NCBI GenBank assembly: GCA_001550305.1
Contig: LRTP01000286.1
Location: 1-64,000, forward strand
Source of the DNA: Streptomyces diastatochromogenes
GTDB lineage: Bacteria; Actinomycetota; Actinomycetes; Streptomycetales; Streptomycetaceae
Length of the DNA stretch: 64,000 nt
Direction: 5' to 3'
The translations under genes were made by a program, and so were the position numbers. Under the pieces are notes generated by a model. The model did not search any database. It saw only the letters and a list, made by a program, of their open reading frames with translations, and was not told the DNA's origin. Positions 43,340 to 62,422 of the stretch are shown one piece after another. Every line of letters starts with the position of its first letter. Position 1 is the first letter of the stretch.

Positions 43340-43368
43340 GACATCCGGATCTGACATCAGTGCCGGGA

Positions 43369-46268: not shown

Positions 46269-46312
46269 GCTGGGGGTTCCTTCCGGTTGTGAGATCGGGA
46301 TGGGGCACGGCT

Positions 46313-46350: not shown

Positions 46351-46356
46351 GGCCGG

Positions 46357-46686: not shown

Positions 46687-46709
46687 GGCGGTTCTCCCTT
46701 CGCGGACGG

Positions 46710-46865: not shown

Positions 46866-46877
46866 GGGGTGTCTCCC

Positions 46878-47069
46878 TTAGCGGATGGAGCAGCGGTGGG
46901 TGCGGGCGGCGAGCTGGGCGGCGGACTGGCTGGAGTAGTCGGCCGACCAGCCGCAGCGGTCGTTGGTGCACACGGCGGCGTGCTTGGTGTGGCCGTGGCG
47001 GTCGCGGTGGGTGCCGATCTGCACCGGGCCGATCCGCATGACGGAGTGGAAGTGGTCACGGGCGGGCAT
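46878..47069 (-). CDS. Mobile element transfer protein
   Basis: 63 residues starting MPARDHFHSVMRIGPVQIG, followed by GHTKHAAVCTNDRCGWSADYS with a Cys-x4-Cys pair and a C-terminal HRCS. This is the small protein usually annotated as 'mobile element transfer protein' in Streptomyces AICEs. It is in the same tight operon, 12 bases before the 51-residue gene. Probably involved in spreading; exact role unknown. Confidence 0.8.
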   Translation of the reverse strand: MPARDHFHSVMRIGPVQIGTHRDRHGHTKHAAVCTNDRCGWSADYSSQSAAQLAARTHRCSIR

Positions 47070-47088
47070 GGCGGTCAGTCCTTCCGGG

Positions 47089-47745: not shown

Positions 47746-47948
47746 CACGAGCCGCCGGGGTAGTCGGGGCCGTCGGTGGGGTCGTAGCCAGGCGGGAAGG
47801 TGCCGGGCGGCGGCTCCGGCAGGGACGCGGCCAGCGACGGGCCCACAGCCTCGATGAAGCTGTCGTCTGCGCCGGACGTGTCGGCGTAGAGGGCGAGTTG
47901 GCCGAGCAGTAGAACGGTGCGGGCGAAGTCGTCGCAGTCGGGGCACAT
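47745..47948 (-). CDS. Small acidic hypothetical protein
   Basis: 67 residues starting MCPDCDDFARTVLLLG, with a CxxC pair at the very start and no other motif. It follows ggagag and overlaps the DUF2637 gene start. Tight packing argues it is real. Function unknown. Confidence 0.75.
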   Translation of the reverse strand: MCPDCDDFARTVLLLGQLALYADTSGADDSFIEAVGPSLAASLPEPPPGTFPPGYDPTDGPDYPGGS

Positions 47949-48021
47949 GACGTGCTCTCCCTTCCTCAGGCATGGAGGGGGTAGGGACCTGGCGCGATGC
48001 GGTCGCGCCGACCGGGGGAGG

Positions 48022-49377
48022 TCAGGCGGTGGCGGGGGCTGTCTTGGACAGCGGCACCCGGTCCGAGGGCAGCGCGGCGGTGGCGGGCCGGAAGGGCGCC
48101 AGCGCGGGCAGGTCCGGGGTGCGGTCGGCGTGCTTGTTGCAGAGGTTCACGGCCTCGCGCAGCGAGGTGTGCGGGGCGCGGATACGGGCCCAGCCGCCGG
48201 ACGAGTCTCCGGTGACGGCGATGCCGGGGGTGTCGGTGGGGATCTGGATGGCGGCGAGGACGGCGTCCGGGGAGATGTCCCCGAAGGCCATGTTCGCCGA
48301 GGATTCGTCGTTGACGCGGTGGGCGGTCCGGCCGGTGAGCTGCGCTCGCAGCATGGTGATGCCCTTGCCGAGTTCGGAGCCGAAGCGCTGCCCGCAGATC
48401 TCCAGGTAGATCCCCGCGGCACGGCCGAGCTGGGCGAGGCGGACCAGTGCGGTGATGATCCGGTCCCGGCGCTTCTCCTCGTCCTTGGTCGCGAACAGGG
48501 CCAGCTCGGCGACCTCGTCCACGAGGACCACGACCGGTACCGGGCGCAGGTGGTCGGGCAGGTCCCAGATGTCGGCGGCGATCTCCGCATCCGGCACGTT
48601 CACGGTGATCCGCTGCTCAGCCCGTATGAGCTGGTAGACGCCTTCCATGTGGGTGACGAGGGCTTCGAGGAGGTCGAGGGCGGTGTCAGGGTTGTCGGCG
48701 AGCGCGGAGAACCGGCGGGCGAGGGGGAAGAGTTCGACGCCCTGTTTGCAGTCGATGCCGACGAGCGCGACGTTCATCGGGGCGAGCCCGGCGACCAGGT
48801 TGCGCTGGTAGACGGACTTGCCGGACTCGGTGGCGCCGAGGGTCAGACCGTGCGGGACGGCCCGGTAGTCGCGGTAGTGCACCGCGCCGTCCTCGCGCAG
48901 GGCGACCGGAACCCGCATCGGAGCCGTATCGGTCCTGGCGGGCATCTGCACCCGCTTGAGGACGTCATAGCCGGTCATCCGCACCTCGACGACGCCGGAG
49001 CGCAGTTCCCGGGAGGTGACGCCGTACATGGAGAAGGAGTGGCGCAGCCGGTCCGTAGCAGCAGAGACGTCGAAGGCGTCCTGCCCGGGGCGGAGTTTGA
49101 GCCGGAGCACCAGGCCGGTCCGGGTGGGGCGGATCCGCAGGATACGAGGTGCCCGGGACTCGGGGACGGGCCGGTTGGTGATCCGGGCGAGGGTGAGGCG
49201 CCAGCGGGAGGGCGGGACGGTCAGCCCGCAGGCGTCCATGACGGAGGTGTAGCGGACCAGGACCCGCAGGGCGGCGAAGGCGGCACCGAAGGCCAGCCAG
49301 TACCAGGCGGGGCGCCGCCACCGCAGGATCACTGCGGAGGCGACGACCAGCAGCAGGGCGACCGTTAACGCGGTCAT
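48022..49377 (-). CDS. traB: TraB/TraSA-type FtsK-SpoIIIE DNA translocase
   Basis: 451 residues from the ATG at 49377. An N-terminal hydrophobic stretch (TALTVALLLVVASAVIL and WLAFGAAFAALRVLV) anchors the protein. The Walker A motif is GATESGKSVY and Walker B is VPVVVLVDEVAELAL. In Streptomyces one such hexameric pump moves double-stranded plasmid DNA between hyphae, in contrast to the type IV secretion of other bacteria. Two bases separate it from the upstream gene stop, so operon-coupled. The C-terminus (TPDLPALAPFRP and the rest) is shorter than FtsK's gamma domain. Confidence 0.93.
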   Translation of the reverse strand: MTALTVALLLVVASAVILRWRRPAWYWLAFGAAFAALRVLVRYTSVMDACGLTVPPSRWRLTLARITNRPVPESRAPRILRIRPTRTGLVLRLKLRPGQDAFDVSAATDRLRHSFSMYGVTSRELRSGVVEVRMTGYDVLKRVQMPARTDTAPMRVPVALREDGAVHYRDYRAVPHGLTLGATESGKSVYQRNLVAGLAPMNVALVGIDCKQGVELFPLARRFSALADNPDTALDLLEALVTHMEGVYQLIRAEQRITVNVPDAEIAADIWDLPDHLRPVPVVVLVDEVAELALFATKDEEKRRDRIITALVRLAQLGRAAGIYLEICGQRFGSELGKGITMLRAQLTGRTAHRVNDESSANMAFGDISPDAVLAAIQIPTDTPGIAVTGDSSGGWARIRAPHTSLREAVNLCNKHADRTPDLPALAPFRPATAALPSDRVPLSKTAPATA

Positions 49378-49379
49378 GA

Positions 49380-49733
49380 TCAGGCCGCCTTCGATGTCGA
49401 GGCAGCGGCGGCGAGCGAGGTGACCGCGACCGCGCGGAACGCGATCCCGTGCCGCTTCTGCCCGTTGAACTCGTTCTCCCACGCCGAGGCGACCAGACCC
49501 GTCAGCGCGACCGGGGTCCCCATGGCCAGGTCCTCGGAGACGCCGGGCTGGGGGACGGTGAGCTTGAGGATCTCCACCTCGTCGGGCGTGGAGAACATGA
49601 CCTCCACGGTCATCAGGGTCACGCCATCCTTGTCGAGGGCGATCTCACCGGTACGACGGTCCTTGACCTTCGGCTGCGGAGCCTTGGCGACCATCACGGT
49701 CGCGTTGGTGGTGTCGACGGGAATCTGACGCAT
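49380..49733 (-). CDS. SCO3933-family regulatory protein
   Basis: 117 residues from the ATG at 49733 (earlier starts in the same frame have no good ribosome site). Sequence MRQIPVDTTNATVMV, then KDRRTGEIALDKDGVTLMTVEVMF, ends in an Ala/Ser-rich tail. Such proteins are first genes of AICE transfer operons and are annotated as SCO3933 family regulators; function not established. It lies downstream of the twin palindromes at 49845-49884, which would control the operon. Confidence 0.8.
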   Translation of the reverse strand: MRQIPVDTTNATVMVAKAPQPKVKDRRTGEIALDKDGVTLMTVEVMFSTPDEVEILKLTVPQPGVSEDLAMGTPVALTGLVASAWENEFNGQKRHGIAFRAVAVTSLAAAASTSKAA

Positions 49734-49844
49734 GATGGAACTCCCTTTCAGGGGCGGGAGCGGCGTACTTGCTTGGCGGTGGGTCGCCGCTCCTGTGCGT
49801 TGACGGGTGGCCCGCAGCAAAGTCGCGGGCGTTCGCGTTTCAAT

Positions 49845-49884
49845 CTGGTGCGCACCAGTAGGTTGCATCTGGTGCGCACCAGAT
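49845..49884. promoter_or_regulatory. Twin palindromic operators
   Basis: CTGGTGCGCACCAG at 49845-49858 and the 18-bp palindrome ATCTGGTGCGCACCAGAT at 49867-49884, centres 24 bp apart. They sit between the XRE gene and the transfer/replication operon, the likely binding sites of the element's GntR regulator. Confidence 0.8.
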
Positions 49885-50071
49885 GTCAAGCGTTGTCGCC
49901 GGTCCGGCTCTCCAACTCGCCTTTCTGCGACGCTTCTAGAGAACCGCTCCTGCCAACGCCCCGGTAGCCAACAGGGGTTAACACCCGGCGCGTTAACCCC
50001 TGCCGACCTGCGCGGATGTGAGGCATGCTGCTATTAGGGCTTGGCAACCACAGGTGGGGCGAGGCGACGTG
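49885..50071. other. Divergent control region of the AICE
   Basis: About 190 bases between the operators and the XRE gene, with an AT-rich stretch and an imperfect repeat of GGGGTTAACACC and GCGTTAACCCC near 49973-49999 (a palindromic GGGTTAAC/GTTAACCC pair). Likely promoters of both divergent units; no clear -35/-10 could be fixed. Confidence 0.5.
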
Positions 50072-51202
50072 ATGAACGGACTCAAGGCAGCGCGGAGCGC
50101 ACGAGAGTGGTCGCAGGAGCGGCTAGTTCGAGAGATCGAACGCCATGCGCATCAGCACATGCTCACCGTCGCATCCACGGCCAGCCTGCGCGTCTACGTC
50201 TCGGAGTGGGAAAACGGCCGCCGTTCGATCTCGGCCCGCTACGCGAAGATCCTGCGCGCTCTCCTCGGCATCACGGACGACGAACTGCATGGCAGGGGCG
50301 AGGCGTTGGCCGCACCCGTCGTGGCTGACGGATACGACGAACTCATAAGCCGGATCGACGCCGCCCGCAGCGTCAGCCTGACCATGGTGACGACATTCAT
50401 GGATCAGACGGAACTGTTCAGGACCATGGACCGGCAGATGGGCGCCGCGAGCCTTGTCGACCCGATGACGGGGCACCTGGCGAAGCTCGAGGACGCGCTC
50501 ACCTTCGCCGTACTTCCGGAGACCCGGCGCCCGGTCGCCCTCGCGTTGGCAGGGGCCGCAACGCTGGCCGCATGGCAGGCACTTGACGTGGGCGCCGTGG
50601 AACGAGCCTGGCGGCACTATGAGTTGGGCAAGCGGGCGGCACAGGAGGCTGACGAGCCGATGTATCTCGCGCACGCCACGGCCGAGCAGGCGTATGTGCT
50701 GTGCGACGCGGGCCGGGCCTCCGTCGCGGTCCAGCTGATACGGGATGCCCAACGCGTCGGCGGCAAGGCGATGTCCCCACGACTCACAGCCTGGTTGTAC
50801 GCGGCCGAAGCCGAGATCTGCGCCCGGGCGGGGATGCCGGACGACTGCCGGCGGGCGCTGGAAAACGCGATGCGATGCCTGCCGCCGGGGCAGGAAGCCC
50901 GAGACGCGGACATGCTGAGCATCTTCTTGAACGAGGGGCACCTCAGCAGGTGGCGCGGCAACGCACTCGCCCTGATAGGTGACGACGAAGCAGTGACCAG
51001 CTTGTACGACGCCCTAGATTCCGCAGACCCCACCTTCATACGAGCGTCGGCGGGAGTGCGCTGCGATCTCGCCCAGGCGCACATGGCGCGCGGCGAATAC
51101 GACCAGGCGCACGAGCACCTGCGGCAGGCTCGACTGCTGGCGAGTCGTACCGGATCAGTGCGTCATCGGCGCCGGATCGAACAACTCACGCAGCAGTTGT
51201 AG
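50072..51202 (+). CDS. XRE-family regulator with TPR-like C-terminal part
   Basis: 376 residues from the ATG at 50072 (a GTG at 50069 is adjacent). The N-terminal HTH is [19 protein letters not shown], followed by [21 protein letters not shown]. The rest is mainly helical with TPR-like pairs (around [17 protein letters not shown] and [17 protein letters not shown]). This type of regulator often reads signals such as mycelial contacts or peptides. It overlaps the end of the GntR-Nudix gene (convergent, 17 bp). It may activate transfer, in the role that Pra has in pSAM2, but it is not Pra by sequence. Confidence 0.8.
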
Positions 51203-51980
51203 GCGCGGCTCCAGCACCCCGTGAGGCGAGCACGTGCAGGAGAGCCACGAGCGTCCCTGAGCCCATGAGCTCACCGCGGGTCATCAGGCCGGGAATGTCC
51301 GCGAGAGGCACCCAGGCGACGTGCCCCGCTTCTTCGAGGTCGGTCGGTTCTCCGACGAGCTTCGCACCCTGGCCGACGTAGATCTCGTGGGGTGAGTCGA
51401 CCATGCCGACCATGGGCTGATAGGTGACTACGTGTTCCAGGGCATCCGGCCGCCAGCCGGTCTCTTCCTCGACTTCCCGCAGTGCGGCCTGCGCGGCGTC
51501 TTCTCCCTCGTCAACGATGCCGCCGGGCAACTCCCAGCCGAACGAGTCGGGGACGAAGCGGTAGCGCCAGAGCATCAACACGCGGTCCTGGTCGTCGAGG
51601 ACGGCGGCGATGGCGACGTGATGAAGCCGTACGACGTGATGCTCGAAGCGTTCGACGCCGGGCGGCTCGACGTCCACCAGGCTGAGCTTCACCCAACGGT
51701 TGTCGTACACGGTCCGCTCACCGTGAATCTGCCACGGCTCCACGTCTGTTGGCGTCTCAGTGCTCACAGACCGGTCCGGCACGCGGTACGAGCTACGGCC
51801 GTGCACCTCGATGGCGCCCTCGGCGATGAGCTTGGCCAGCACCTGGCGAAGGGCCGTACGGCCGATGCTCAGTTCTTCCGACAGGGTGCGCTCAGACGGG
51901 AGCTTGGAGCCAGGCTGATACTTGCCCGTTGAGATCCACTCGCGAATCGTGAGGTAGACCCGCTCCGACTTCGGTCCCAT
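51186..51980 (-). CDS. GntR-Nudix fusion, KorSA/Pif-like
   Basis: 264 residues from the ATG at 51980; an in-frame GTG at 52037 would add 19. The N-terminal GntR winged helix ([29 protein letters not shown]) is KorSA-like, and the C-terminal part is a Nudix domain with the box [23 protein letters not shown], all residues of GX5EX7REUXEEXGU present. In pSAM2 KorSA (GntR repressor of transfer) and Pif (Nudix immunity factor) are separate genes. Here one chain would repress transfer and give immunity to the same element. The twin palindromes at 49845 are its likely sites. Confidence 0.85.
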
Positions 51981-52037
51981 CCTGTGAGCACGCTCCCTGC
52001 GTCCTGTGATGCTGGTCCGCTCCAGCGTAGCGACCAC

Positions 52038-52548
52038 ATACGAAAATCCGTAGGTGGTTGGCCGTTGCTGCTGATCGCCAAGGGGCGCGGTAGAACTTTC
52101 CCTACTTCATCAAGGCCCGCGCACGGCGCGGGCGCGCGCCGCCTTGTCGGCGGGGCCGCCGCCCTGTCTTCGCCAGCGGCGGCCCCGCCCGGCGGCGCGC
52201 TACGTGCAGCGGGCGGAGTAGGTATGCCCAGCAAGGTCTGGCCAGTCAATGGGCGGCATCGCTGGGCGGTTTACGTGGCTGAAGCGCGGCCGACTGCGGC
52301 CATAGCCGTAGTGCTGTTGAACAGGCTGGCTGCGGAAGGGGTGGCGCCGGGGCCGGGCACCCATGCCGGGCAGGAACGGCCGGCATGGGTAAGCCGCCGT
52401 ACCGCCGCCGTCACGGATGCGAGAGCGTGAGCGGACCATCGCCCGGAGATTGGCGGACGTAGAGCAGCTGCTGCCGCGATGTGGCTGGGCCCGTCGTGGG
52501 CGCTCCGCTAGGTGCGCCCCGGTGGATGAACAGCATTCGACATTCGGG
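52038..52548. other. Noncoding region with strong GC hairpin (possible replication or transfer origin)
   Basis: About 510 bases. It holds a GC-rich cluster of inverted repeats at about 52110-52210, the strongest a perfect 14-bp stem (52149-52162 with 52176-52189, 13-base loop). A ggag-tagged ATG at 52224 opens a 68-codon frame (to 52430) without recognisable homology. A second frame from 52417 is even weaker. Placement suggests oriV, single-strand origin or clt; no direct proof. Confidence 0.5.
52224..52430 (+). CDS. Possible small protein (68 aa)
   Basis: ATG at 52224, ggag five bases upstream, starting MPSKVWPVNGRHRWAV. Mid-GC, no motif recognised. It lies between the GC hairpin and the cargo and may be a chance frame. 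Confidence 0.35.
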   Translation: MPSKVWPVNGRHRWAVYVAEARPTAAIAVVLLNRLAAEGVAPGPGTHAGQERPAWVSRRTAAVTDARA

Positions 52549-53745
52549 CTAGGGTGCTTCCGCAACGCCGCTACTAAGATTTCGATGTTCTTCCCTGAAC
52601 TCAACTTCTAGATCTATCATCCACGAGAAAATGTTTAGAAAATTGGGCATCTTCACATCTGCGCCAGCCCTTGATGCCCAAGTTTGCAGGACAGCAGAGA
52701 TGAAGCCGCGGAACTGGATCATGAATCCCATGGGGTGATCACCGGTCTCACCCACGGGCATCTTCAGGGTGATTTCCTTGACCAGCCGGAACACTATTTC
52801 GTATCGGGTCAGAAAATCGGGATGTGTCTCCTGGTCGCCCGTGGAAATCCAACTCTCCGATACGTGCGCCAATGCCACCAAGGCGACCATGGAGCCACCA
52901 ATGGCACGATAAGTACGGGCACGAGATGCGTTCTCTGTAAAAAGTCCGGACAAGAGGATGAATGCTCCGACGTCCGCTTCCACCTCCTTTTTTTGATCCT
53001 CGTTCAGCTTGGCAATCACATCGTGAATACCGATTCGATTCAACCAGTCACCGACAGTTTTCCTGACGGTCCGCGAGTGGCGAAATGAAGAATCTGTATG
53101 TCCAAGCATATGGTGGCAAAATTCGTGGGCAATTACAAATTGTTCGACTGCGTTCACCAAATTGAAGTAATCGCCCTCCTTCCTGCGTCGGGGCAGGTCA
53201 ATGTGGAGAGCGTCCGTGGCGCGTACGTGTCGTTCGGCGGCCCACGTATGGACGGCTTGATCAGTCACATCGATGGGTTCAAATGCGGCACGTTCAATCT
53301 CCTCCAAGATCATCTGGGTCGTTTCCGTGTCGTCATCGTTAAAGTTAACCTCCTTCCCTGCCGTCAGGATGGAGTCGTAGAAATGGCTGAAGAGCGTAGT
53401 GTAGATCATGGCGGCCATGGTGAAGCCGTAGTTCAGTTCAATAATTCCAGCGCTTCTGAAAGAAGAAGCTTCAGCATTGGCCTCCCCTTTGAAGGCGCGC
53501 GCTACAAAGATGTTACGCATGGTGGCCTTCCATTCGACAGGGGCGATGTCGATCAGGGCTTTCGTTGCGCTATCGAGTTCCGGACAGTTGGAGTGTTCTG
53601 GCCTCCATCCAAGAAATTCGGCATACTTCTGGTCGCTCACGAGTTCTCGGCGATCGGCCTGTTCGAAGAGTGTCTTCCAAAAATTCTCTTCCGGCCTGCC
53701 GCAGTCTACGTAGAATCGGCGACGAGATTCACTAAGTTTCCACAT
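52549..53745 (-). CDS. Zinc-metallopeptidase-like cargo protein
   Basis: 398 residues from the ATG at 53745. An HExxH motif is H207-E208-F-C-H211 in FVIAHEFCHHML, and the downstream glutamate pattern is KEVEADVGAF (E254 to D258), as in gluzincins of the M48/M78 style. There is no signal peptide and no membrane segment. GC is low: in 53101-53160 I counted 26 of 60 (43%). The gene has no known partner motif; it lies downstream of the TIGR04255-led operon and may be its effector or regulator protease. Function unknown. Confidence 0.8.
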   Translation of the reverse strand: MWKLSESRRRFYVDCGRPEENFWKTLFEQADRRELVSDQKYAEFLGWRPEHSNCPELDSATKALIDIAPVEWKATMRNIFVARAFKGEANAEASSFRSAGIIELNYGFTMAAMIYTTLFSHFYDSILTAGKEVNFNDDDTETTQMILEEIERAAFEPIDVTDQAVHTWAAERHVRATDALHIDLPRRRKEGDYFNLVNAVEQFVIAHEFCHHMLGHTDSSFRHSRTVRKTVGDWLNRIGIHDVIAKLNEDQKKEVEADVGAFILLSGLFTENASRARTYRAIGGSMVALVALAHVSESWISTGDQETHPDFLTRYEIVFRLVKEITLKMPVGETGDHPMGFMIQFRGFISAVLQTWASRAGADVKMPNFLNIFSWMIDLEVEFREEHRNLSSGVAEAP

Positions 53746-53946
53746 GTGCCCCCCCTGAATTCTTTGCGACTACTCCCTAAGGTAATCGAATCATGATGGC
53801 ACTGATAAGATCCGTTGTCAGCCAGATTTCGCGGAGCGGGGTGAATTTCCACCTACGTGACAACGTCGACGTACAGGGGCGGACTGGCACGCACACTTGC
53901 CCTTGACGCGGTCATTGTCCGCCGACCTGGACGGTTGCGCCCCCAG
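53746..53946. other. Short intergenic region between cargo transcripts
   Basis: 201 bases of lower GC that hold the promoter of the metallopeptidase-like gene and the end of the three-gene operon. No palindrome noted. Confidence 0.4.
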
Positions 53947-54345
53947 TCAAATCCACTCGGCAGCTTTAGCAAGCTTGCGCTTGGCCCCAGTAGTTCTGTT
54001 GCCTTTTAGGTCGATGACCAGTGCATGCCCCGGGAAGTAGTCAACCGGATCTCTTTCCACATCCTGACCAAGTTCACGAAGCAGTGAAACGGTCCATTTG
54101 CACGCATCAGTGTAGGCGGCAAATATGGGCAGTTCGAAGAGTTCTGCGACAGTTTTCCCAGCGGCAATGATGTCCTCTTCGAGGAATGTAGACATGCCAT
54201 CGTCGGATGAACTGTTGGCCATGGCGTTGGAAGAAATCCTCCGCCCTGTTCCGTCCTCGGTTTGCCTGATCCACTCGGGTTTCAAAAGGCGGATCACTGT
54301 TAGCTCACTCAGGACAACTTGAGCAGATGCGGAATCATCGCCCAC
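53947..54345 (-). CDS. Cargo hypothetical protein, third gene of operon
   Basis: 132 residues from a GTG at 54345 with ggaag upstream, 10 bases from the previous stop. Rich in Ser/Asp/Asn early (MANSSSDDGM), then an EEDIIAAGKTVAELFELPIF helix-like block and a C-terminal DLKGNRTTGAKRKLAKAAEW. No motif recognised, no signal peptide. The tight spacing and shared low GC support one operon. Confidence 0.75.
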   Translation of the reverse strand: MGDDSASAQVVLSELTVIRLLKPEWIRQTEDGTGRRISSNAMANSSSDDGMSTFLEEDIIAAGKTVAELFELPIFAAYTDACKWTVSLLRELGQDVERDPVDYFPGHALVIDLKGNRTTGAKRKLAKAAEWI

Positions 54346-54355
54346 TTGCTTCCGC

Positions 54356-54805
54356 CTAAAGTCCGGCGATCACGCGAAGAGCCCTGGCTATCTTACTCTC
54401 GGCCATATCGAGACTCGTTTCCCACTCATCCCCGTTGGCTCCTTCGAAGTAGGCCTCTCCGCCATCCTGGTCGAACTGAATGAAGAGATAGTTATCCGAG
54501 CGCTCCCACTCGAACCCTAGAGCTCCGTCATCGCCGATCGTGAAGAAGGGTCTCGGTGCACCTACGGGGAGTTTCGCGATCCATTCCACGCATGTGCGCT
54601 TGGAGATATCGGAAACACGTGGATCCGATGCTGAGCGAACCAGCACTTCACGCACCAGGGGTGTTGCCCAGTCGTTCTGCGATGTCGAGTACAGAAGGGT
54701 GCTGACGTAGCTTGAGCTGGCTCGCCCTTGCTCGGGTGCCCCTGTCAGCGTGGACGGATCCGCTGCCCGCTTCGGGCCCCACATTGAATCGACCGCAGTG
54801 CTCAT
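54356..54805 (-). CDS. Cargo hypothetical protein, second gene of operon
   Basis: 149 residues from the ATG at 54805, which shares a base with the preceding TGA stop. Contains FFTIGDDGALGFEWERSDNYLFIQFDQDGGEAYFEGANG, an acidic beta-like stretch that might bind metal or a partner, and RALRVIAGL at the end. No motif recognised. Translational coupling with the TIGR04255-like gene implies a 1:1 partner. Confidence 0.75.
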   Translation of the reverse strand: MSTAVDSMWGPKRAADPSTLTGAPEQGRASSSYVSTLLYSTSQNDWATPLVREVLVRSASDPRVSDISKRTCVEWIAKLPVGAPRPFFTIGDDGALGFEWERSDNYLFIQFDQDGGEAYFEGANGDEWETSLDMAESKIARALRVIAGL

Positions 54806-55605
54806 CAAACCCCCCAGAATGCGCGTGCTTCTGTAGTTATCATACTTCTGAACGCATCGTTAGCTACGATGTGGGCCTTGTCGAAGAAAGATAGGGCCTT
54901 CACTGAAGAGGGATGCGTGAAGTTGAGACTCCTGGCTGTGATATTCAGGTTGATACGGGCTTCAGCCTTTGCCCAGTTATAGGCTGGCTGAACGCTAACG
55001 TGAACTCTCCCGAGAAATTCCCCTGCGTCGATAATTGGCGCTGATGCGGAAAAAGAGAACTGTTCGTAGTCCTGGGAGAGTCCAGAACTCACATTTACAA
55101 CCTTGTGCGTCTCGGAAAGGTTGCTCCACGTGGGGTTTGGTTCAATCAAGTTAATGTAGGTGAGTTCGGCGCGGATCGGCAGTACTGCTCCTCCCGCTCG
55201 CTGAAGTCCAGAGTCCGCGTTACTCAAAAAAGTAGAGAAGCGTTGCCTGAGTTCGCCGAAATGTGGATAGATTTGATCCGGAGTGACCCTCTTCCAGTTC
55301 AAAGCCAGATAATCGGGCTGAACTTGGATTACTTCGGATCCGTCTACCGAATGCAGCCAGTAACGAGACTCGACCGCATTTGTGAAATTAATGGATGGGC
55401 CACTTGGCATGCCCGAGCCGATATCGGGAGCCTGCTCAATCGGCATCACGTAGGGCTGAACGACCTGCACGTTCCGATGCTCCTCGTACCAAGAACCAAG
55501 AATCTCCGGAACCCGTGGCCCAACCAGCATGGGCTGTGGTGACATCGCCACCGAAAGTACAACCTCGTTCACTGGCGGCTGTGCGGCGAGCGTCTCGTCT
55601 CCCAT
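54805..55605 (-). CDS. TIGR04255 family protein
   Basis: 266 residues from the ATG at 55605, aaggaga five bases upstream (an earlier in-frame start at 55626 is weaker). The N-terminal signature PPVNEVVLSVAM and the overall pattern (ending DAFRSMITTEARAFWGV) match what I recall for TIGR04255, a sporadically distributed family often beside small unknown genes and without known function. No membrane or catalytic motif. It heads the three-gene minus-strand operon. Confidence 0.75.
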   Translation of the reverse strand: MGDETLAAQPPVNEVVLSVAMSPQPMLVGPRVPEILGSWYEEHRNVQVVQPYVMPIEQAPDIGSGMPSGPSINFTNAVESRYWLHSVDGSEVIQVQPDYLALNWKRVTPDQIYPHFGELRQRFSTFLSNADSGLQRAGGAVLPIRAELTYINLIEPNPTWSNLSETHKVVNVSSGLSQDYEQFSFSASAPIIDAGEFLGRVHVSVQPAYNWAKAEARINLNITARSLNFTHPSSVKALSFFDKAHIVANDAFRSMITTEARAFWGV

Positions 55606-56050
55606 GCAGTCTCCTTGGCGAGTCACCTACGACTGAGCTTGCCATAGCTTCGAGCTAACGGGCAGGGCACGGTGGGATACAAGCACAATCCGGCTGCAGT
55701 CCACTCGGCTGGGCTACCTGTCGGCCTAACGATCGGAACGCGTGGTTGCACACGGGGCGCGGTGCAGTGCTCGCGGGACGGGCTGGTGGTCCTCGGCGTA
55801 TGGAGGTACGTATCGCAGTGGCGCGCGCGCCAGAACCGTGCCAGATCGAGCGGGCAACCACGGTCGCTCCGAGCCAGCAGCGGCGCAGATGCCCGCTGAC
55901 AGGCTCTGCACCGACACACACCCGGTGACCAGTGCGGACTGGCTCACGAGGGGCGCCAGGCCTGCAAAGCCGAGGTGTTCGGTCTGCCCCTGGGGCCAGT
56001 GTGGTCAGCCAGTAGCCTGCGGCAATCAGCCCACCGACCTTGGAGGCTCC
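55606..56050. other. Upstream region of the cargo operon and the GIY-YIG gene
   Basis: 445 bases. GC returns to high values. No convincing gene: several overlapping short frames on both strands have no support. It should hold promoters for both directions. Confidence 0.5.
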
Positions 56051-56596
56051 GTGGTCCATGCTGCTCTCACCGAACCGGATCGGCTGTGGTCGGCGCGGGA
56101 GGTCTTGGTGCGTCCCAGCCCGGTGCCGGCGGCGGCTGGGGTCTACGGATGGCACTTCGAGAAGGCTCCCTGCCCGGACCTCGATGACGGGCGCCTGCTC
56201 TACGTCGGTATAGCCCCGCGGTACATGGCGAACCGGATCAGCGCGCAGAACCTGCGTAAGCGCGTGAGGTATCACTACCGGGGCAATGCGGCCGGATCAA
56301 CGCTTCGCCTCACGCTCGGTTGCCTGCTCGGGATCGAGTTGCGCCGCGTAGGCAGCGGGACGCGCATGACCTTCGGCAAGGCCGGGGAAGCCGCCCTCAG
56401 TCAGTGGATGGCAGAGAACGCCCGAGTGTGCTGGATCGAGCGTGACGAACCGTGGACCATGGAGTCGGAGCTCATCTCTCAACTCGACCTGCCTCTGAAC
56501 CTCGACCAGAACCGCCACAACCCGTTCCACGGTCGGCTCACGGAAGTGAGATCCCAAGCCCGGCAGCGGGCAAGGGAGTTGGCTGTCAGTGCATAG
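56051..56596 (+). CDS. GIY-YIG-like nuclease-domain protein
   Basis: 181 residues from a GTG at 56051 with ggagg four bases upstream. Residues 30-53 show GVY, then YVG, the two halves of the GIY-YIG core. Arg69/71 follow (NLRKRVRYH), and a Glu (E138/140, MESELIS) and Asn (N150/154) complete the usual active-site set. It would cut DNA with a metal ion. Located 127 bases before attR, which is unusual cargo. It could be a defence nuclease or a homing-type endonuclease relic. Confidence 0.75.
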   Translation: MVHAALTEPDRLWSAREVLVRPSPVPAAAGVYGWHFEKAPCPDLDDGRLLYVGIAPRYMANRISAQNLRKRVRYHYRGNAAGSTLRLTLGCLLGIELRRVGSGTRMTFGKAGEAALSQWMAENARVCWIERDEPWTMESELISQLDLPLNLDQNRHNPFHGRLTEVRSQARQRARELAVSA

Positions 56597-56723
56597 CCAG
56601 TCGGGCTGACATCACCAGTTGACATCAACGGCGGCGAACGATGGTGCACCGGGGCGGTCGCAGACGGATCGGCGAGCGACCAGCGGGTCCCGTTCTGGCA
56701 CACGGCACCGCGCTGCGAGCGAA

Positions 56724-56769
56724 CTTACAAGGCGGATGTCGGCGGTTCGAAACCGTCCGCGCCCACCAG
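56724..56769 (+). other. attR: right copy of the 46-bp attachment site
   Basis: Identical to 43257-43302 and to the 3' part of tRNA-Val, but without the 5' half of a tRNA, so not a functional tRNA gene here. It marks the right end of the AICE. Confidence 0.95.
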
Positions 56770-57015: not shown

Positions 57016-57186
57016 CGACCGGTCCGCCAGTCCCGCAAGACCCGACTGCCCGTACTTGCGCACCCACGCATGCACCGACTGCCGTGACACCCCATACCGC
57101 GCCGCGACTTGGGTGACGGGAACCCCCGCGGCAACCTCCATGACCGCGTGATACCGCTGCTCGACCACACTCAGCTCCACCAGCAC
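57016..57186 (-). pseudogene. Truncated IS481-type transposase, N-terminal HTH only
   Basis: From a GTG at 57186 the frame reads MLVELSVVEQRYHAVME, then the HTH VTQVAARYGVSRQSVHAWV and GLAGLADRS, the N-terminus of IS481-family transposases. After about 57 residues homology stops, and the DDE catalytic part is missing. It abuts the integrase fragment. Confidence 0.7.
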
Positions 57187-57390
57187 GGCCTCAGCCCTCC
57201 CCGCACACGCCGATCGGACGCACACAGCCAAGCCGAGGCAAGCGGTGGCACGTCTTCGGCCCAGGGGGCCTGATCGTCTTGCCGACGCACTGGAGCACGA
57301 CAAAACTGGCCATGTGGGCATTCCGGAACGTGCTCGGAAGGGAGGAGATCCCGCAGCCCGGCCGATAGACGATCAAAGGGAGAGGGAGTC
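57187..57390. other. Region before the peroxidase operon
   Basis: 204 bases, with the ggagag ribosome site of the next gene. Promoter expected; no clear hexamers, regulators or palindromes seen. Confidence 0.4.
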
Positions 57391-57891
57391 ATGACGGCAC
57401 AGAGTTCCGCGACTCCAACCGTGACCAGGCAGCCCGACGGTCTCGGCAAGCGGGTCGGCGAGGTAGCGGAAATCACCGTTCTCTTCGATGCCAAGCCAGG
57501 CGGGGCAGAGAGGTTCCACCAGAACGCCGCCAAGATCCAGGACGACGCCTTTCAATACGAAAAGGTCGTCGGCACTGTCCACGACTTCCGTGTCACATTC
57601 ATCAACAATGACACCCAGGTCATAGGCGCGGTCACCTATGACGGTGACTTCAAGCCGTACATGGCTGACATCTTCGCCAACGCCGCACCGTGGTTCGACG
57701 AGATGTTCGAAGGTGTCGTTGAGGGCTGGCCCGGGGCGACCTCTCCGAACATCGTCGACTGGCTGGCGACGAAGATCGTGGAGGCCGACATGTGGTACGC
57801 CTCCAATCCGACCATGACGGTCGAGGACACCGCCAAGGCACAGAAGGTCACGCAGGCGTTCAACGCGTTGCTGGATACGGCGTCCAGCTAG
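57391..57891 (+). CDS. Dimeric alpha+beta barrel-like small protein, first gene of the DyP operon
   Basis: 166 residues from the ATG at 57391 with gggagag upstream. The core reads VGEVAEITVLFDAKPG, then VTFINNDTQVIGAVTYDGDFKPYMADIF and EGVVEGWPG. The YDGD-x-Y-x2-D-x-F pattern is shared with small ferredoxin-like-fold proteins that occur near peroxidases and DyP enzymes; I recall the pattern but cannot name a family. No signal peptide. First of four genes in one direction with short gaps. Possibly a partner or heme-handling subunit of the DyP enzyme. Confidence 0.75.
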   Translation: MTAQSSATPTVTRQPDGLGKRVGEVAEITVLFDAKPGGAERFHQNAAKIQDDAFQYEKVVGTVHDFRVTFINNDTQVIGAVTYDGDFKPYMADIFANAAPWFDEMFEGVVEGWPGATSPNIVDWLATKIVEADMWYASNPTMTVEDTAKAQKVTQAFNALLDTASS

Positions 57892-57938
57892 CGGCGCGCG
57901 CTCGTCGGCTCGGGCCCCGTCAGGGAGGTCGCAGCATC

Positions 57939-59090
57939 ATGTCCGACCATCTTTCCGGCACTCGCGCCCTGGCCGATCCGGCCATAGACCTGACCGACCT
58001 CTATGCCTTTCCCAGCCCCTCCCGGTCGGGTCGGCTCGTCCTCGTCATGAATGTCTTTCCCAACGCGCGGCCGGGAGCCCTGTTCTCTGACGCTGCCAGC
58101 TATCGTTTCCGCGTCCGTCCGGCATCCGTGCCCATGGGAGATTCCGGCTCACTCCTCGATGTCGGCACCGACGAATTCGCGCTCACCTGCACCTTCTCGA
58201 TTCCGATCGGACCCGATGACAACGGGGAGTTGGCGCAGCGGGGAACGTGCGAGCTGCCCAACGGGGAATCGGTTTCGTTGCTGGTGAATGACGAGCGGGG
58301 CGGCGAGGGACATGGCGTGCGCTGCTACGCCGGGCTGCGGCTGGATCCCTTCTTCATGGACGTGGCCAAGGAGGTGGAGACGCGGGCGAGGCGGCGGCTC
58401 GCCTTCGTACCGAAGGGCACCAACTCCCTGGAGGGCGCCGACGTCCTGACCGTCGTGGTAGAGCTCGACGTCGCCAGGGTGTTCGGGGCGGCCTCGGGGA
58501 GCGTCTTCGCCGTTGCGGCGGAAACCGTCACGGTCGGGCCGTATCCGGTGCGCCTCGAACGCCTCGGCCGCCCCGAGGTCAAGAACATTCTCCTGTCGGA
58601 CAACGGGGTCGACGCCGCCAATAAGGTCGTTGACCTGCGCGATCTCTACAACGAGGAAGATCCGTTCCTGCTGGGGCCGAGCTACGTGGCCGCCTATCGC
58701 TCACGCCTTAACGCCAACCTGGTCTTCTTCGACGGTCTCGACGGCGAGCTGGACTGGACGACGCAGCCGGACGGGACGCATCCGCTGACGGAGCTGCTGC
58801 TCGCGGACTTCCTGGTCGTGGACGTTGCCAAGCCGTACGCCGAAGACAGCTATTTCGAGATCGAGCGGGCCCTGCTGGAGGGACGGGAGCATGCGACCTG
58901 TGGCGGCCGGTCGCTCAACGACGATGTCATCGACACGCTCTACACGCTGATCGTCAACGCGGGCCATGGCCCGCGCGTGAGCGACGGCGTCGACGGGACC
59001 GTCCCGGCTTCGCGCGAGTTCCCGTACCTGGCACCGCCCAACCCCGACCCGCCCGAACCCGTTTCCGTCCCGACGGCCGCCGCAGGCTGA
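57939..59090 (+). CDS. DUF4331 family protein
   Basis: 383 residues from the ATG at 57939, ggagg upstream, 47 bases after the previous stop. It begins MSDHLSGTRALADPAIDLTDLYAFPSP, the standard DUF4331 start (DHLS/DH-x-D and DLTDLYAF). DUF4331 proteins are a family of unknown function, sometimes secreted and sometimes cytoplasmic; this one has no signal peptide. The Asp-rich motifs suggest a metal site. It overlaps the next gene by one base. Confidence 0.85.
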   Translation: MSDHLSGTRALADPAIDLTDLYAFPSPSRSGRLVLVMNVFPNARPGALFSDAASYRFRVRPASVPMGDSGSLLDVGTDEFALTCTFSIPIGPDDNGELAQRGTCELPNGESVSLLVNDERGGEGHGVRCYAGLRLDPFFMDVAKEVETRARRRLAFVPKGTNSLEGADVLTVVVELDVARVFGAASGSVFAVAAETVTVGPYPVRLERLGRPEVKNILLSDNGVDAANKVVDLRDLYNEEDPFLLGPSYVAAYRSRLNANLVFFDGLDGELDWTTQPDGTHPLTELLLADFLVVDVAKPYAEDSYFEIERALLEGREHATCGGRSLNDDVIDTLYTLIVNAGHGPRVSDGVDGTVPASREFPYLAPPNPDPPEPVSVPTAAAG

Positions 59091-60163
59091 TGAGCAGTTC
59101 CAGGGCGGCCACTCTTGCAGACGGTGAGAGGGGGCCCGACCTCGCGGGCGGGCCGCCCACGACAGCCGGCATCATCGCCCTGGGCAACCTCGACGCGCGC
59201 ATCGAAGGTCTGACGTCGCAGGCGACACGGGGACGACTCACCGCCGACGGCTGGGGCGAGTTGGTGGAGCTGACCGCCCTGCGCGGGCATGTACGGGGCC
59301 GCATCGACGAGGCCGAGCGCGCGGCATCGCTGGCCGAGACGTTCGTCGACAAGGTGCCGCGCGATCCTCGCTCGTTTGTGGCGCGTGCCAGGCTGGCGGG
59401 CCTCTTCCATCGATTCGCGGCGGCGCTGGACGATCTGGACGCGGCGGCTGCGCTGGGGCTCGATCGGCGCACCGTGGACGAGGAGCGAGCCGCCGTCTGG
59501 CAGGCGGTCGGGCGGTACGACGAGGCGCTTGCGCTGCGTCGACAGGGGCTGTCGATGCAGCAGGACTTCTGGACCCTCGGCGCCATGGCCCGCTGTCGGG
59601 CCGAGAGCGGCGAGGTGGACGAGGCCGAGTCGTGGTTTTTGGCAGCGAGACGCGTCTTCCGCGGGGTCAGTCCCTTTCCGCCGGCGGTCCTCGAATTCCA
59701 GTGCGGACAGATGTGGCTGGCCCAGGGTGAACTGGTGAGCGCGCGCGTCTGGCTGGAGTCGGCTACTCGCCGACTGCCGTCCTACGTGCCGGCGCATGGC
59801 CACCTCGCTGAGGCCGATGCCGCCGAAGGCAGGGTGGCCGTAGCGATAGAGCGCCTGCGCCGATTGGCCCTCGCCAGTGACGATCCCGACTACGCGACCC
59901 GGCTTGCCCGCCTCCTGGGCGGGTGCGAGGCATCGACGGAAGCTCGGTTCTGGCGTGCCCACGCTGCCGCACGCTACGAGGAGTTGATGGCGCGCCACCC
60001 CGAGGCGTACGCCGATCACGCGGCGGAGTTCTGGCTGACCGTCGGCGGCGATCCCCAGCGAGCGCTTCGGCTCGCGCGGTGGAACCTTGCGCTCCGAGCG
60101 ACCCCGCGCGCTCAGGCGCTCGTCAATCGCGCGATGTGCCGTGTCGGACAGCAGCGAAAGTAG
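59090..60163 (+). CDS. TPR-like helical repeat protein
   Basis: 357 residues from the ATG at 59090, overlapping the DUF4331 stop by one base (TGATG). Repeated helix pairs with Ala/Leu/Arg spacing, for example LRGHVRGRIDEAERAASLAETF, FHRFAAALDDLDAAAALGL and FWTLGAMARCRAESGEVDEAE, are TPR-like scaffolds. Residues after 300 form a last helical part. No membrane or enzyme motif. It may assemble the DyP enzyme with the two other proteins. Confidence 0.8.
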   Translation: MSSSRAATLADGERGPDLAGGPPTTAGIIALGNLDARIEGLTSQATRGRLTADGWGELVELTALRGHVRGRIDEAERAASLAETFVDKVPRDPRSFVARARLAGLFHRFAAALDDLDAAAALGLDRRTVDEERAAVWQAVGRYDEALALRRQGLSMQQDFWTLGAMARCRAESGEVDEAESWFLAARRVFRGVSPFPPAVLEFQCGQMWLAQGELVSARVWLESATRRLPSYVPAHGHLAEADAAEGRVAVAIERLRRLALASDDPDYATRLARLLGGCEASTEARFWRAHAAARYEELMARHPEAYADHAAEFWLTVGGDPQRALRLARWNLALRATPRAQALVNRAMCRVGQQRK

Positions 60164-60207
60164 CGGCAATTGGTACAAAGTCGCCGATAGTCGACCGGGA
60201 GGACGTC

Positions 60208-61539
60208 ATGACAGCGACTGAAGCAGCGCCGCTGCAGCTGGACGAGATTCAGGGCATCGTGCTGCGTGACCGGCCGTCACCGTACGTCGGCACCTACATC
60301 CTGTTGCGTGTGGACGATCCCGGCGCCGGGCGCGAGTTGATGGGGCGTCTGGCCGAGCTGGTCGACTCCGCTGCGAACTGGTGGCAACCGGACCTGCCCG
60401 CGCTCCTCAACGCCGGACTGACGTACCGGGGGCTCGAAGCGCTCCAGGTCTCACCGGTCGCCCTGAGCACCTTCCCTGAGGAGTTTCGCCAGGGCATGGC
60501 GGCGCGCGCCGAGTTCATCGGTGACACCGGGGAGAGCGCGCCCGCCCGCTGGGAGCCGCCCTTCGGTACCGGCCAGGTACATGTCGTGCTGTCCCTCCTG
60601 GCTGCCGACCAGGAGTCATTGGCGGTCGTCCTCGAACGTGCGCGCAAGGCCCACGCGCAGCTTCGCGGTCTTCAGGTCGTCCATCGGCAGGACTTCTACC
60701 AGCTGTCCAGCGGGCGTACCAGCTTCGGCTACAAGGACGGCATCGGCAACCCCGCGATCGAAGGCAGCGGTGCCGAGAGTCCGCCCGGTGACGGTTCCGT
60801 GCTCAAGGCAGGCGAATTCGTGCTCGGCTATCGCGACGAGACCGGAAACCTGCCGCCGATGCCGCAGCCGGCCGAGCTGGGCCGCAACGGCACCTTCGTG
60901 GCCTGGCGGAAGCTGCACACGCGCGTCGCGGCCTTCCGCCGCTATCTCCACGACAACTCCGGCAGCCCGGGGGAGGAGTCGCTGCTCGCCGCCAAGATCG
61001 TGGGCCGCTGGCAGAGCGGCGCCCCGCTGATCCTGGCGCCCGAGCACGACGACCCGGCCCTGGGAGCGGACGCCCAGCGCAACAACGGTTTCCGCTACGA
61101 GTCCGATCCGCGTGGCGCGATCTGCCCCCACGGCGCCCACGCCAGGCGAGCCAACCCGCGCGACTCGGAGATCATCGGTGACATCCGCCTGCACCACATG
61201 ATCCGACGGGGCACCAACTACGGTCCCCCTCTTCCGGCCGGCATCCTGGACGACGACGGCGCCGACCGTGGCATCGTCTTCGTCTTCATCGGCTCGCACC
61301 TTGACCGTCAGTTTGAATTCGTGAAGTCGCAATGGTTGAACGACGGCCATTTCACCGGCCTCGACCAGGAGAAGGACCTGCTCACGGGCGACAACGACGG
61401 CACGGGCATCTTCACGATCCCGCAGCACCCCATCCGGCGCCGCCTGCACGGCGTAGAGCGTTTTGTCATCACCCGCGGCGGAGAGTACTTCTTCCTGCCG
61501 AGCCTCAGCGCGCTGCGCTGGCTGGCCGACGTCCAGTGA
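60208..61539 (+). CDS. DyP-type heme peroxidase
   Basis: 443 residues from the ATG at 60208 with ggagga upstream, 45 bases after the TPR gene. The DyP signature GYKDG covers residues 174-178 with the distal Asp177. The proximal heme ligand His311 is in CPHGAHARRANPR, followed by a conserved Arg. No Tat signal (no twin Arg at the start), so cytoplasmic. DyP enzymes use hydrogen peroxide to oxidise dyes, lignin-like phenols or other substrates; some are packed into encapsulins. No encapsulin gene or targeting tail is visible. It closes the four-gene operon. Confidence 0.9.
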   Translation: MTATEAAPLQLDEIQGIVLRDRPSPYVGTYILLRVDDPGAGRELMGRLAELVDSAANWWQPDLPALLNAGLTYRGLEALQVSPVALSTFPEEFRQGMAARAEFIGDTGESAPARWEPPFGTGQVHVVLSLLAADQESLAVVLERARKAHAQLRGLQVVHRQDFYQLSSGRTSFGYKDGIGNPAIEGSGAESPPGDGSVLKAGEFVLGYRDETGNLPPMPQPAELGRNGTFVAWRKLHTRVAAFRRYLHDNSGSPGEESLLAAKIVGRWQSGAPLILAPEHDDPALGADAQRNNGFRYESDPRGAICPHGAHARRANPRDSEIIGDIRLHHMIRRGTNYGPPLPAGILDDDGADRGIVFVFIGSHLDRQFEFVKSQWLNDGHFTGLDQEKDLLTGDNDGTGIFTIPQHPIRRRLHGVERFVITRGGEYFFLPSLSALRWLADVQ

Positions 61540-61580
61540 ACCGAGCTCGCGGCTTGCTCTGATCGACGGCAGGGTAAGCG

Positions 61581-61611
61581 TGAGCTGGTTCGAATCCTGT
61601 CGGGGGGCACA
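61581..61611 (+). other. Fossil attachment site: tRNA 3' end fragment
   Basis: GAGCTGGTTCGAATCCTGTC then GGGGGGCACA resembles the T arm and acceptor end of a Streptomyces tRNA-Arg-type gene, with mismatches in the T stem. No 5' half is present. Together with the following hairpin and integrase tail it mirrors the AICE left end at 43.26 kb. Confidence 0.6.
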
Positions 61612-61616
61612 AGGGC

Positions 61617-61650
61617 AAAGGCCCCGGACCGATCATGGTCCGGGGCCTTT
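61617..61650 (+). terminator. Terminator of the fossil element
   Basis: Perfect 14-bp stem (61617-61630 and 61637-61650) with the loop GATCAT, the same loop as the terminator after tRNA-Val. Confidence 0.85.
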
Positions 61651-61680
61651 GGCATCCACGGCCGACATCAACGAGCACGG

Positions 61681-61725
61681 TCACTGACGACCGGGACGCC
61701 TCCTGAGCAGCCGATCCAGGTTGTC
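61681..61725 (-). pseudogene. 3' tail of a lost integrase gene
   Basis: The minus-strand frame ends DNLDRLLRRRPGRQ, comparable to the AICE integrase end HMDRLLTRRLQHE. The stop lies 31 bases from the terminator, as in the intact AICE (30 bases). It joins directly to the end of the DUF11-like gene, so the rest of the integrase was deleted. Confidence 0.7.
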
Positions 61726-62422
61726 AGTGGTCGTGGCGATCGCAGTGGTCATGACGCTCGTCGTGCCCGTCGCCGTCGTGCCCGTGGTGCTCGATCTTGG
61801 TGGTGTCGGTGGCGGTGTGAGTCGTGGTGTCACCGCCTCCAGTGACGGTGGCGGTGTTGGTGACCCGTGCACGGGCGTTGCAGGAGACGTCGACCTTCAG
61901 GGTGACGGGCGGGTAGCTGTGCCCGGCAGGCAAGACGTCGCTGCGGGTACAGGTGAGGGTGGCCAGAGTGCAGTGCCATCCCCTGCCGGTGATCCTGTCG
62001 GCCCGAAGACCTGTGGGGAGGGTGTCGTGGACGGTGACCTTGGTGCCATTGGTCGGGCCGGCTGCGGTGACGTTACCCACAGTGATGGTGTAGACGCCGT
62101 CCTCGCCCCGGGTGAAGGTGTCCGCGTGACTCTTGGCGATGGTCAGGGAGGGGTGGCTGACTGGGATGACCGTAAATGTGAGGCCGGTACTACCGGTGCT
62201 GTCGGTGTTGCTGGGGTCAGTGGTGGCGGTGCCACTGGGTTCGGTGAGGCCGGTGGTGGTGAAGGCGTTGTTCACCGGCACCGTCCCGTCGTTGCCTTGG
62301 GCGACGTGGGCGCGCTGAACCGTGGCGGTCCAGGCTGTGGCCAGGACGATCGCCAGGACGGCCAGCCCGACGGTCACGACCGCCCCCGTCTTGCGGGGCA
62401 CCCTCAGCCACACTCGAAACAT
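61724..62422 (-). CDS. DUF11-like secreted protein with His-rich C-tail
   Basis: 232 residues from the ATG at 62422 (earlier in-frame starts at 62488 and 62500 are weaker). A hydrophobic segment (AVVTVGLAVLAIVLATAW) is a signal anchor. The middle is a DUF11-like beta sandwich: SLTIAKSHADTFTRGEDGVYTITVGNVTAAGPT, ending near NARARVTNTATVTGGGD. The last 25 residues are His/Asp/Gly-rich (HHGHDGDGHDERHDH), able to bind metals. The stop codon meets the fossil integrase tail, so this C-terminus may be a new end created by deletion. Downstream of a DUF916-like gene on the same strand. Confidence 0.78.
   Translation of the reverse strand: MFRVWLRVPRKTGAVVTVGLAVLAIVLATAWTATVQRAHVAQGNDGTVPVNNAFTTTGLTEPSGTATTDPSNTDSTGSTGLTFTVIPVSHPSLTIAKSHADTFTRGEDGVYTITVGNVTAAGPTNGTKVTVHDTLPTGLRADRITGRGWHCTLATLTCTRSDVLPAGHSYPPVTLKVDVSCNARARVTNTATVTGGGDTTTHTATDTTKIEHHGHDGDGHDERHDHCDRHDH

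Follow-up and report, generated by a model that had tools for sequence, protein, structure and literature searches.

A recurrent gene set joining a class C/V DyP-type peroxidase to a small companion protein, DUF4331 and a TPR protein in Streptomyces and other bacteria

Introduction

DyP-type peroxidases (DyPs) reduce hydrogen peroxide, and encapsulins are a known home for them. The nearest characterised relative of the enzyme discussed here is DrDyP of Deinococcus radiodurans, which its authors place in class C/V and which, on its own, is inactive at physiological pH and holds a six-coordinate low-spin heme, the heme of the M190G variant being likewise low-spin; the physiological substrate of DyPs and what removes the blocking heme ligand are both left open by the same authors (PMC10820274). 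This work concerns a four-gene operon of Streptomyces diastatochromogenes coding for a small protein, a DUF4331 protein, a TPR-repeat protein and a DyP of the DrDyP clade. It lies in a stretch of 64,000 nucleotides, referred to below as the window (positions 1 to 64,000, forward strand, of contig LRTP01000286.1, assembly GCA_001550305.1).

No publication on DUF4331, on its Pfam family PF14224 or on DUF4331 together with DyP was found in a search outside which most subscription papers lie, a surprisingly empty result, and among the best matches listed for DyP in the same search no title or abstract start describes this gene set. Neither ‘operon’ nor ‘partner’ is mentioned in the main text of the DrDyP paper, as far as that text was available (PMC10820274). 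The interpretation favored here, to which we give an even chance, is that the four genes belong to a widespread, mobile and cytoplasmic peroxidase module, consisting of DyP, a near-obligate small partner and a DUF4331-TPR pair, in which the small protein would activate the DyP and the substrate would be organic.

Results

Linkage of DUF4331 to a peroxidase

A one-genome-per-species collection was scanned with a DUF4331 alignment, giving 133 relatives, the best 80 of which, picked by similarity to the subfamily of the window protein, were analysed. DyP lies within 6 kb of the DUF4331 gene at 69 of the 80 loci, always on the same strand (69/69), within 500 nt in 60 of these 69, and with a median gap of 43 nt. 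At nine more loci the peroxidase near DUF4331 is a di-heme cytochrome c peroxidase (CCP), no locus has both peroxidases, and two (L078 and L093) have neither; at the first of these two, four open reading frames match a longer version of the small protein, as though a copy had decayed. The original prediction had proposed looking for the same gene order in other genomes, and the exact order small-DUF4331-TPR-DyP does occur in S. hygroscopicus ATCC 21589, Streptomyces sp. Ag109_O5-1 and S. carpinensis (L017, L018 and L073), the linkage being kept with shuffled order across phyla.

The commonest arrangement (type B, 30 loci) is small-DUF4331-DyP followed by genes for an enoyl-CoA hydratase and a protein of the sulfite-oxidase type, and others are small-DyP-DUF4331-TPR and CCP-DUF4331-TPR, whilst rhizobia have the long form of the small gene, DyP, DUF4331 and TPR, often with acetoacetate-decarboxylase-like (ADC-like) and SDR genes in between. 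Recurrent neighbours outside the window include enoyl-CoA hydratase, a sulfite-oxidase-type molybdoenzyme, an FAD oxidoreductase and the ADC-like and SDR genes just named; no recurrent stress gene is among the neighbour families listed. Sets with DyP were found in Actinomycetota, Chloroflexota, Cyanobacteriota, Acidobacteriota and Pseudomonadota, and those with CCP in Pseudomonadota, Planctomycetota, Verrucomicrobiota and Vulcanimicrobiota. In the tree of the 69 DyP-linked sequences the form with enoyl-CoA hydratase makes one clade (100/100), the order in which DUF4331 precedes DyP with a TPR gene requires three changes, and the window clade has its nearest non-Streptomyces relative in a Ktedonobacteraceae locus that follows the other order. 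A TPR homolog is recognised by phmmer at 40 of the 80 loci. Among the plasmids collected, six records have this DUF4331 subfamily; the TPR gene is found in exactly these six, each of which also has DyP (6/6).

That the linkage survives changes of gene order and crosses species boundaries points to function, which supports the four genes being a functional unit. The DyP clade is rare, being found at E<=1e-40 in 7 of the 246 genomes sampled from the phylum, the source genome included, so chance adjacency should be negligible, and the conserved linkage is, on these counts, far above chance. The link seems specific to this subfamily, because a DyP is absent from all classical DUF4331 loci, as are small and TPR partners (0/20, with up to 8 kb fetched on each side). 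A general link between DUF4331 and DyP was also considered and is rejected, given these 20 loci and 12 divergent ones, some on short contigs, among which L158 only has the DyP set; divergent locus L160 has an unrelated DyP. One classical locus (L138) has a sulfite-oxidase-like gene nearby (E 9e-21).

The small protein tracks the peroxidase

The small gene accompanies this DyP at nearly all the loci compared. A profile (A3) built from the window protein and 48 of the DyP-bearing loci, so that the independent finds are 20 loci, recognises the family in 68 of the 69 loci with DyP and in none of the 11 without, the single exception (L024) being a contig that begins inside the DyP gene. The corresponding figures with phmmer alone are 60/69 and 1/11, the one being L078, with its long rhizobial form in four pieces. 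On plasmids, DyP lies within 500 nt of all 20 small-protein matches listed out of 28 records, and eight plasmid DyPs taken from outside these 20 rows all have the small gene (8/8). When, conversely, nine DyP matches were fetched by DyP similarity alone, the small gene was within 1.5 kb in six; in the window it lies further upstream, at L180 the contig end cuts the locus, and L182 has none. A homolog of the small gene also stands one base upstream of the D. radiodurans DrDyP gene. By its linkage, then, the small protein is shown to be a near-obligate companion of this DyP clade.

No Pfam or NCBIfam family matches the window protein at E<=0.1. Its AF2 model, a confident one (mean pLDDT 90.9), has what is probably a ferredoxin-like alpha+beta domain with additional C-terminal helices, and its neighbours in fold searches (Foldseek and VIA), all with middling scores, are NIPSNAP, ABM, mutarotase and polyketide cyclases; the best Foldseek match is the NIPSNAP-like 5kak (E 1.1e-3), and VIA Z scores reach 8.0 over about 100 residues, which is in the middling range. 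Of 50 aligned members no more than five match the ABM family profile (best E 0.0023), the window protein not among them. R67, Y90 and D93 are among the most constant residues. The VIA list has no DyP row, an absence that proves nothing. The rhizobial long form, of about 250 amino acids, stands upstream of DyP (L070-L084, e.g., L077:7714-8436), and in two plasmid copies it is weakly recognised by the profile (E about 1e-8).

The peroxidase

Among solved structures, the window DyP is by far closest to DrDyP (8re3, phmmer E 8.3e-131, both DrDyP entries being at about 1e-130, and the next solved structure at 1.4e-44), and by this similarity it is a class C/V enzyme of the DrDyP clade. D177, H311 and R333/R334 are invariant in 18 aligned sequences (alignment A5) and match D189, H324 and R348 of DrDyP, and they are predicted heme-site residues.

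The source genome has one encapsulin, which raises the thought that this DyP could be encapsulin cargo or part of some other known DyP system. The only encapsulin match, however, sits on a separate contig with another DyP as its neighbour (C720:11920-13663), so that the original prediction was right to see none linked to the operon, and cargo status is rejected, the whole alternative being almost certainly wrong. The same genome has a second small-DyP pair (L164, contig C777 from base 25721), whose small protein is 35% identical and which is followed by a catalase-like protein unrecognised by Pfam. Class-C DyP, small protein and divergent catalase-like proteins also occur together on plasmids (L166, L171, L172, L174, L175 and others), some with acyl metabolism genes, and one plasmid with this set is a 12-kb plasmid of Acinetobacter from permafrost.

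Exchange of the peroxidase and the DUF4331 N-terminus

Two DyP-linked DUF4331s (Sinorhizobium chiapasense and Bradyrhizobium sp. CB82) and eight CCP-linked ones make one clade (100/100). Of the nine CCPs one was checked against NCBIfam NF040606 (449.8 bits, cut-off 150), the rest being identified by similarity to that one. Judged by gene position and by this tree, two unrelated heme peroxidases accompany one DUF4331 lineage.

The AF2 model of the window DUF4331 is confident (mean pLDDT 92.0) and beta-rich, and a profile search of solved structures gave zero matches. A heme-binding DOMON/CBM9-like domain was considered and found unsupported: 4jpq and 2ivf_C, which are akin to that fold, are weak Foldseek rows with TM 0.14-0.16, and the VIA list is headed by antibody folds (Z up to 6.5). 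The N-terminus is conserved. His4 is kept in 69 of 69 sequences (alignment A4) and is the sole His conserved at >=95%; given that the locus seed patterns included M[SA]DH, it is fair evidence only in the ten A4 rows not fitting that pattern, all of which have it (10/10), and in the sets found by profile. Cytosolic members start with M-[SA]-[DH]-H, and those with a signal-like N-terminus (L088 and L093) read A|SDH at its end. In classical DUF4331s, 29 of 31 loci show the pattern, 28 with A|SSHREA at the end of a signal-like stretch and one with MSSHREAP at the start, L116 and L120 not being resolved, and all 11 divergent members start with [AS]-[DNH]-H, L155 only if the signal is cleaved one residue before Asp-His. 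Whichever way the N-terminus is processed, then, this His would come third in the mature protein. The X-X-His pattern is that of an ATCUN-type Cu/Ni site, and the chances that the DUF4331 N-terminus binds metal seem about equal either way. An invariant Trp273 and, in one branch (L005), an SRPBCC domain fused to DUF4331 complete the picture.

These observations call to mind oxidative maturation, as MauG matures methylamine dehydrogenase or as DtpA is linked to GlxA maturation: a heme peroxidase would modify DUF4331 so as to form a cofactor, either derived from the protein or containing copper, and the TPR protein would act as escort. Two unrelated heme peroxidases beside one DUF4331 clade, together with Trp273 and the N-terminal X-X-His, would fit, and a Streptomyces DyP has already been tied to cuproenzyme maturation (PMC4736821). 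Against it, at the CCP loci (type E) the peroxidase appears to be exported while most of the DUF4331s do not, classical DUF4331s have no such peroxidase alongside, so that the family does not need one, and class-C DyPs are also found with catalase-like proteins and no DUF4331. Maturation of DUF4331 by the peroxidase is therefore quite unlikely.

The operon, its selection and its flanks

The original prediction described four genes separated by one-base overlaps or gaps under 50 nt, and so they are, all on the + strand, with 47 nt between the small gene and DUF4331, an overlap of 1 nt between DUF4331 and TPR, and 44 nt between TPR and DyP (Table 1). Its family assignments hold at curated cut-offs for DUF4331 (PF14224, 93.1 bits, cut-off 27), TPR_19 (33.6 bits, cut-off 25) and DyP (TIGR01413, 123 bits, cut-off 100.5), the Pfam N-terminal model DyP_N scoring slightly below its own cut-off (26.2 bits against 27.5). 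Signal peptides were judged by eye throughout. Values of dN/dS (nonsynonymous to synonymous substitution ratio, NG86) are 0.14-0.40 in 15 of 16 gene pairs with computable dS, in comparisons with four loci, three from Streptomyces and one from a member of the Ktedonobacteraceae, and therefore all four are, by this measure, real genes under purifying selection. The four proteins have zero matches at E<=0.001 in phage and defence libraries. No sigma-70-like promoter consensus is present in 57150-61750, where a single terminator-like site, on the opposite strand within the first gene, is no more than chance would give.

Table 1. Features of the operon and of its immediate flanks (positions in the window)
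Feature	Position	Strand	Remarks
Direct repeat of tRNA-Val 3′ end, att site of integrative element	56724-56769	+	left of operon, outside it
Upstream region kept with the operon, likely promoter/leader	57250-57390	+	blastn homology to L017/L018/L073, differing flanks
Small protein gene	57391-57891	+	166 aa (amino acids); ferredoxin-like alpha+beta (ABM/NIPSNAP-like) fold predicted; outside Pfam families
DUF4331 gene	57939-59090	+	383 aa; DyP-linked subfamily; PF14224; no signal peptide by eye
N-terminal codons Met-Ser-Asp-His of DUF4331	57939-57950	+	predicted mature end Ser-Asp-His
TPR-repeat protein gene	59090-60163	+	357 aa; TPR_19
DyP-type peroxidase gene	60208-61539	+	443 aa; class C/V; nearest solved 8re3/8re2; no signal peptide by eye
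Asp177 codon, GYKDG (GXXDG) motif, predicted distal Asp	60736-60738	+	invariant in A5; DrDyP D189
His311 codon, predicted proximal heme ligand	61138-61140	+	invariant in A5; DrDyP H324
Arg333-Arg334 codons, one the predicted distal Arg	61204-61209	+	both invariant in A5; DrDyP R348
tRNA-3′-end-like sequence, possible old att scar	61587-61610	+	no tRNA gene predicted there

Homology to the three other Streptomyces loci (blastn) starts at 57250-57271 and stops at 61526-61554, beyond which the flanks differ, so that by these alignments the operon is a compact cassette with different surroundings in four Streptomyces genomes. The operon had been placed between integration scars, which is true of the left side and doubtful on the right. 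On the left, the 3′ end of a tRNA-Val (gene 43227-43301) is repeated over 46 nt without mismatch (43257-43302 and 56724-56769), delimiting a pSAM2-like element of about 13.5 kb (43227-56769) with an integrase, RepSA, FtsK/SpoIIIE, DUF2637 and GntR-NUDIX proteins. On the right there is a 24-mer that is merely tRNA-3′-like, and its first 20 bases are single-copy in the genome; it may be an older scar. The tRNA-3′-like sequence is followed (61587-61650) by a stem resembling the one after tRNA-Val. That the operon is cargo of the tRNA-Val element was considered and rejected, since the att repeats end at 56769 and the operon begins at 57391. Within the element, a block of genes with low GC content at third codon positions (52549-55626, minus strand) adjoins a GIY-YIG protein (55742-56596) and is possible cargo; two of its proteins were tested, with no firm Pfam match and one weak M78/IrrE-like hint.

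The differing flanks, and the general knowledge that DyPs act on peroxide, could also be taken to mean that the cassette is a peroxide-stress island, with DyP acting alone and the other genes as passengers. Such an origin is largely contradicted by the conserved linkage, i.e., by reshuffled DyP-DUF4331 sets in five phyla, and also by purifying selection on all four genes, by the lack of a recurrent stress gene among the listed neighbour families, and by DrDyP being a poor peroxidase at neutral pH (PMC10820274). We regard it as very unlikely, and the earlier label of ‘stress island’ finds no support, the recurrent neighbours elsewhere being metabolic and the operon lying outside the adjoining integrative element.

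Discussion

If the favored interpretation is correct, the core of the module would be a class C/V DyP with a dedicated alpha+beta partner of about 170 amino acids, to which a second unit, DUF4331 and TPR, has been joined, a unit that elsewhere stands beside a di-heme CCP. The small protein would dock on or near the DyP and set the state of its heme or substrate, the enzyme staying silent until the partner is present; binding and tuning of this kind are probable, given how closely the small gene follows the peroxidase. The beta-rich DUF4331 would hold a metal at its freed N-terminus (Ser-Asp-His) and exchange electrons or substrate with the peroxidase, whilst the TPR protein could be an optional scaffold of DUF4331, for which we would put the chances a little below even. 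The module would then carry out a peroxide-driven oxidation of a hydrophobic organic substrate, likeliest acyl or polyketide-like, rather than plain removal of peroxide.

Several observations weigh against this interpretation or some part of it. L182, which has no small gene within 1.5 kb, is a distant DyP (37% identity). Small-DyP pairs occur without DUF4331, often by catalase-like proteins, so DyP does not require DUF4331, and a TPR gene goes undetected by phmmer at 40 of the 80 loci, so it is dispensable. Forks inside the clade of DyP- and CCP-linked DUF4331s are not settled, and its two DyP-linked members may be a sister branch. The DUF4331 fold search yielded no convincing match (best Foldseek E 1.4e-3, TM 0.14). 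At the CCP loci the peroxidase looks secreted in eight of nine and DUF4331 lacks a signal peptide in eight of nine, three of the nine CCP genes (L085, L088 and L091) are on the opposite strand, the L088 gene being fragmented as well. Because those CCPs look secreted and their DUF4331s mostly do not, a physical complex is unlikely in the CCP branch, where metabolic coupling may be enough. In DrDyP, Met190 occupies the position of the last Gly of GXXDG (PMC10820274), and the window DyP has Gly, so the inactivity of DrDyP need not apply to the window enzyme. An acyl or polyketide-like substrate, lastly, is suggested by neighbouring genes and by nothing else, and is tentative, with the balance somewhat against it.

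The neighbours in question are the enoyl-CoA hydratase of type B, the SRPBCC domain fused to DUF4331 and, beside small-DyP pairs without DUF4331, genes for a 3-hydroxyacyl-CoA dehydrogenase, an oleate hydratase, an acyl-CoA thioesterase and a patatin. A rival reading is a metabolic cluster without any complex, in which the peroxidase (DyP or di-heme CCP), the small protein, DUF4331 and the neighbours (enoyl-CoA hydratase, molybdoenzyme, FAD oxidoreductase, decarboxylase-like and SDR) would catalyse consecutive steps in oxidising a hydrophobic compound, the small protein being a cofactor-free monooxygenase or cyclase. The neighbours in arrangement types B, C and D are indeed enzymes, and ABM oxygenases, polyketide cyclases and NIPSNAP are among the folds closest to the small protein. 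L005 has an SRPBCC domain in one chain with DUF4331, SnoaL-like and catalase genes stand beside small-DyP in L006, and CCPs look secreted where their DUF4331s mostly do not. Yet the small protein tracks DyP (68/69 against 0/11) irrespective of the accompanying enzymes, behaviour more in keeping with a partner of the peroxidase than with a pathway step, and the operon of the window has no further enzyme. We consider a pathway without a complex somewhat unlikely, and continue to favor the module in which the small protein activates its DyP.

It is tempting to go further and speculate that DUF4331 proteins are small-metal or cofactor proteins with their active site on the freed X-X-His, reached by two processing routes, one branch being served by interchangeable DyP and CCP with a TPR escort, and that class-C DyPs are two-component enzymes, locked until the alpha+beta partner binds. 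This wider picture is improbable as a whole, but, if true, a locked two-component class-C DyP would explain the apparent inactivity of crystallised DrDyP. With a companion gene that tracks the DyP clade and that, in D. radiodurans, precedes the DrDyP gene by a single base, the unlocking of silent DrDyP becomes directly testable; the small partner may be what lifts its heme block. The mature X-X-His and the exchange of peroxidases are, in addition, the first concrete functional handles found for DUF4331.

How, then, does this gene set compare with known systems? DrDyP (PDB 8re2/8re3) belongs to the same DyP clade as the window enzyme and has the heme-site D, H and R conserved (PMC10820274). It has the same small partner gene immediately upstream, and its neighbours are a 3-hydroxyacyl-CoA dehydrogenase and a catalase-family gene, whereas those in the window are DUF4331 and TPR. 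In encapsulin-DyP systems, too, the DyP has a companion protein of its own, but the operon of the window has no shell gene. In the DtpA-GlxA-Sco system of Streptomyces a DyP is likewise tied to partners, with copper in play; DtpA, however, is a Tat-exported DyP (PMC4736821), whereas the window DyP has no visible signal peptide and its operon no partner of the GlxA or Sco type. Copper in the window system would be a guess from the N-terminal motif. The di-heme CCP (NF040606) found with DUF4331-SRPBCC and TPR is likewise a heme peroxidase next to this DUF4331-TPR pair, but an unrelated c-type one that looks secreted and comes without the small partner, where the window has a DyP and its small partner. 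Classical DUF4331s (PF14224), finally, are of the same family and share the mature X-X-His N-terminus with the window protein, but mostly have a signal-like N-terminus, and stand without DyP, small or TPR partners at 20 of 20 loci.

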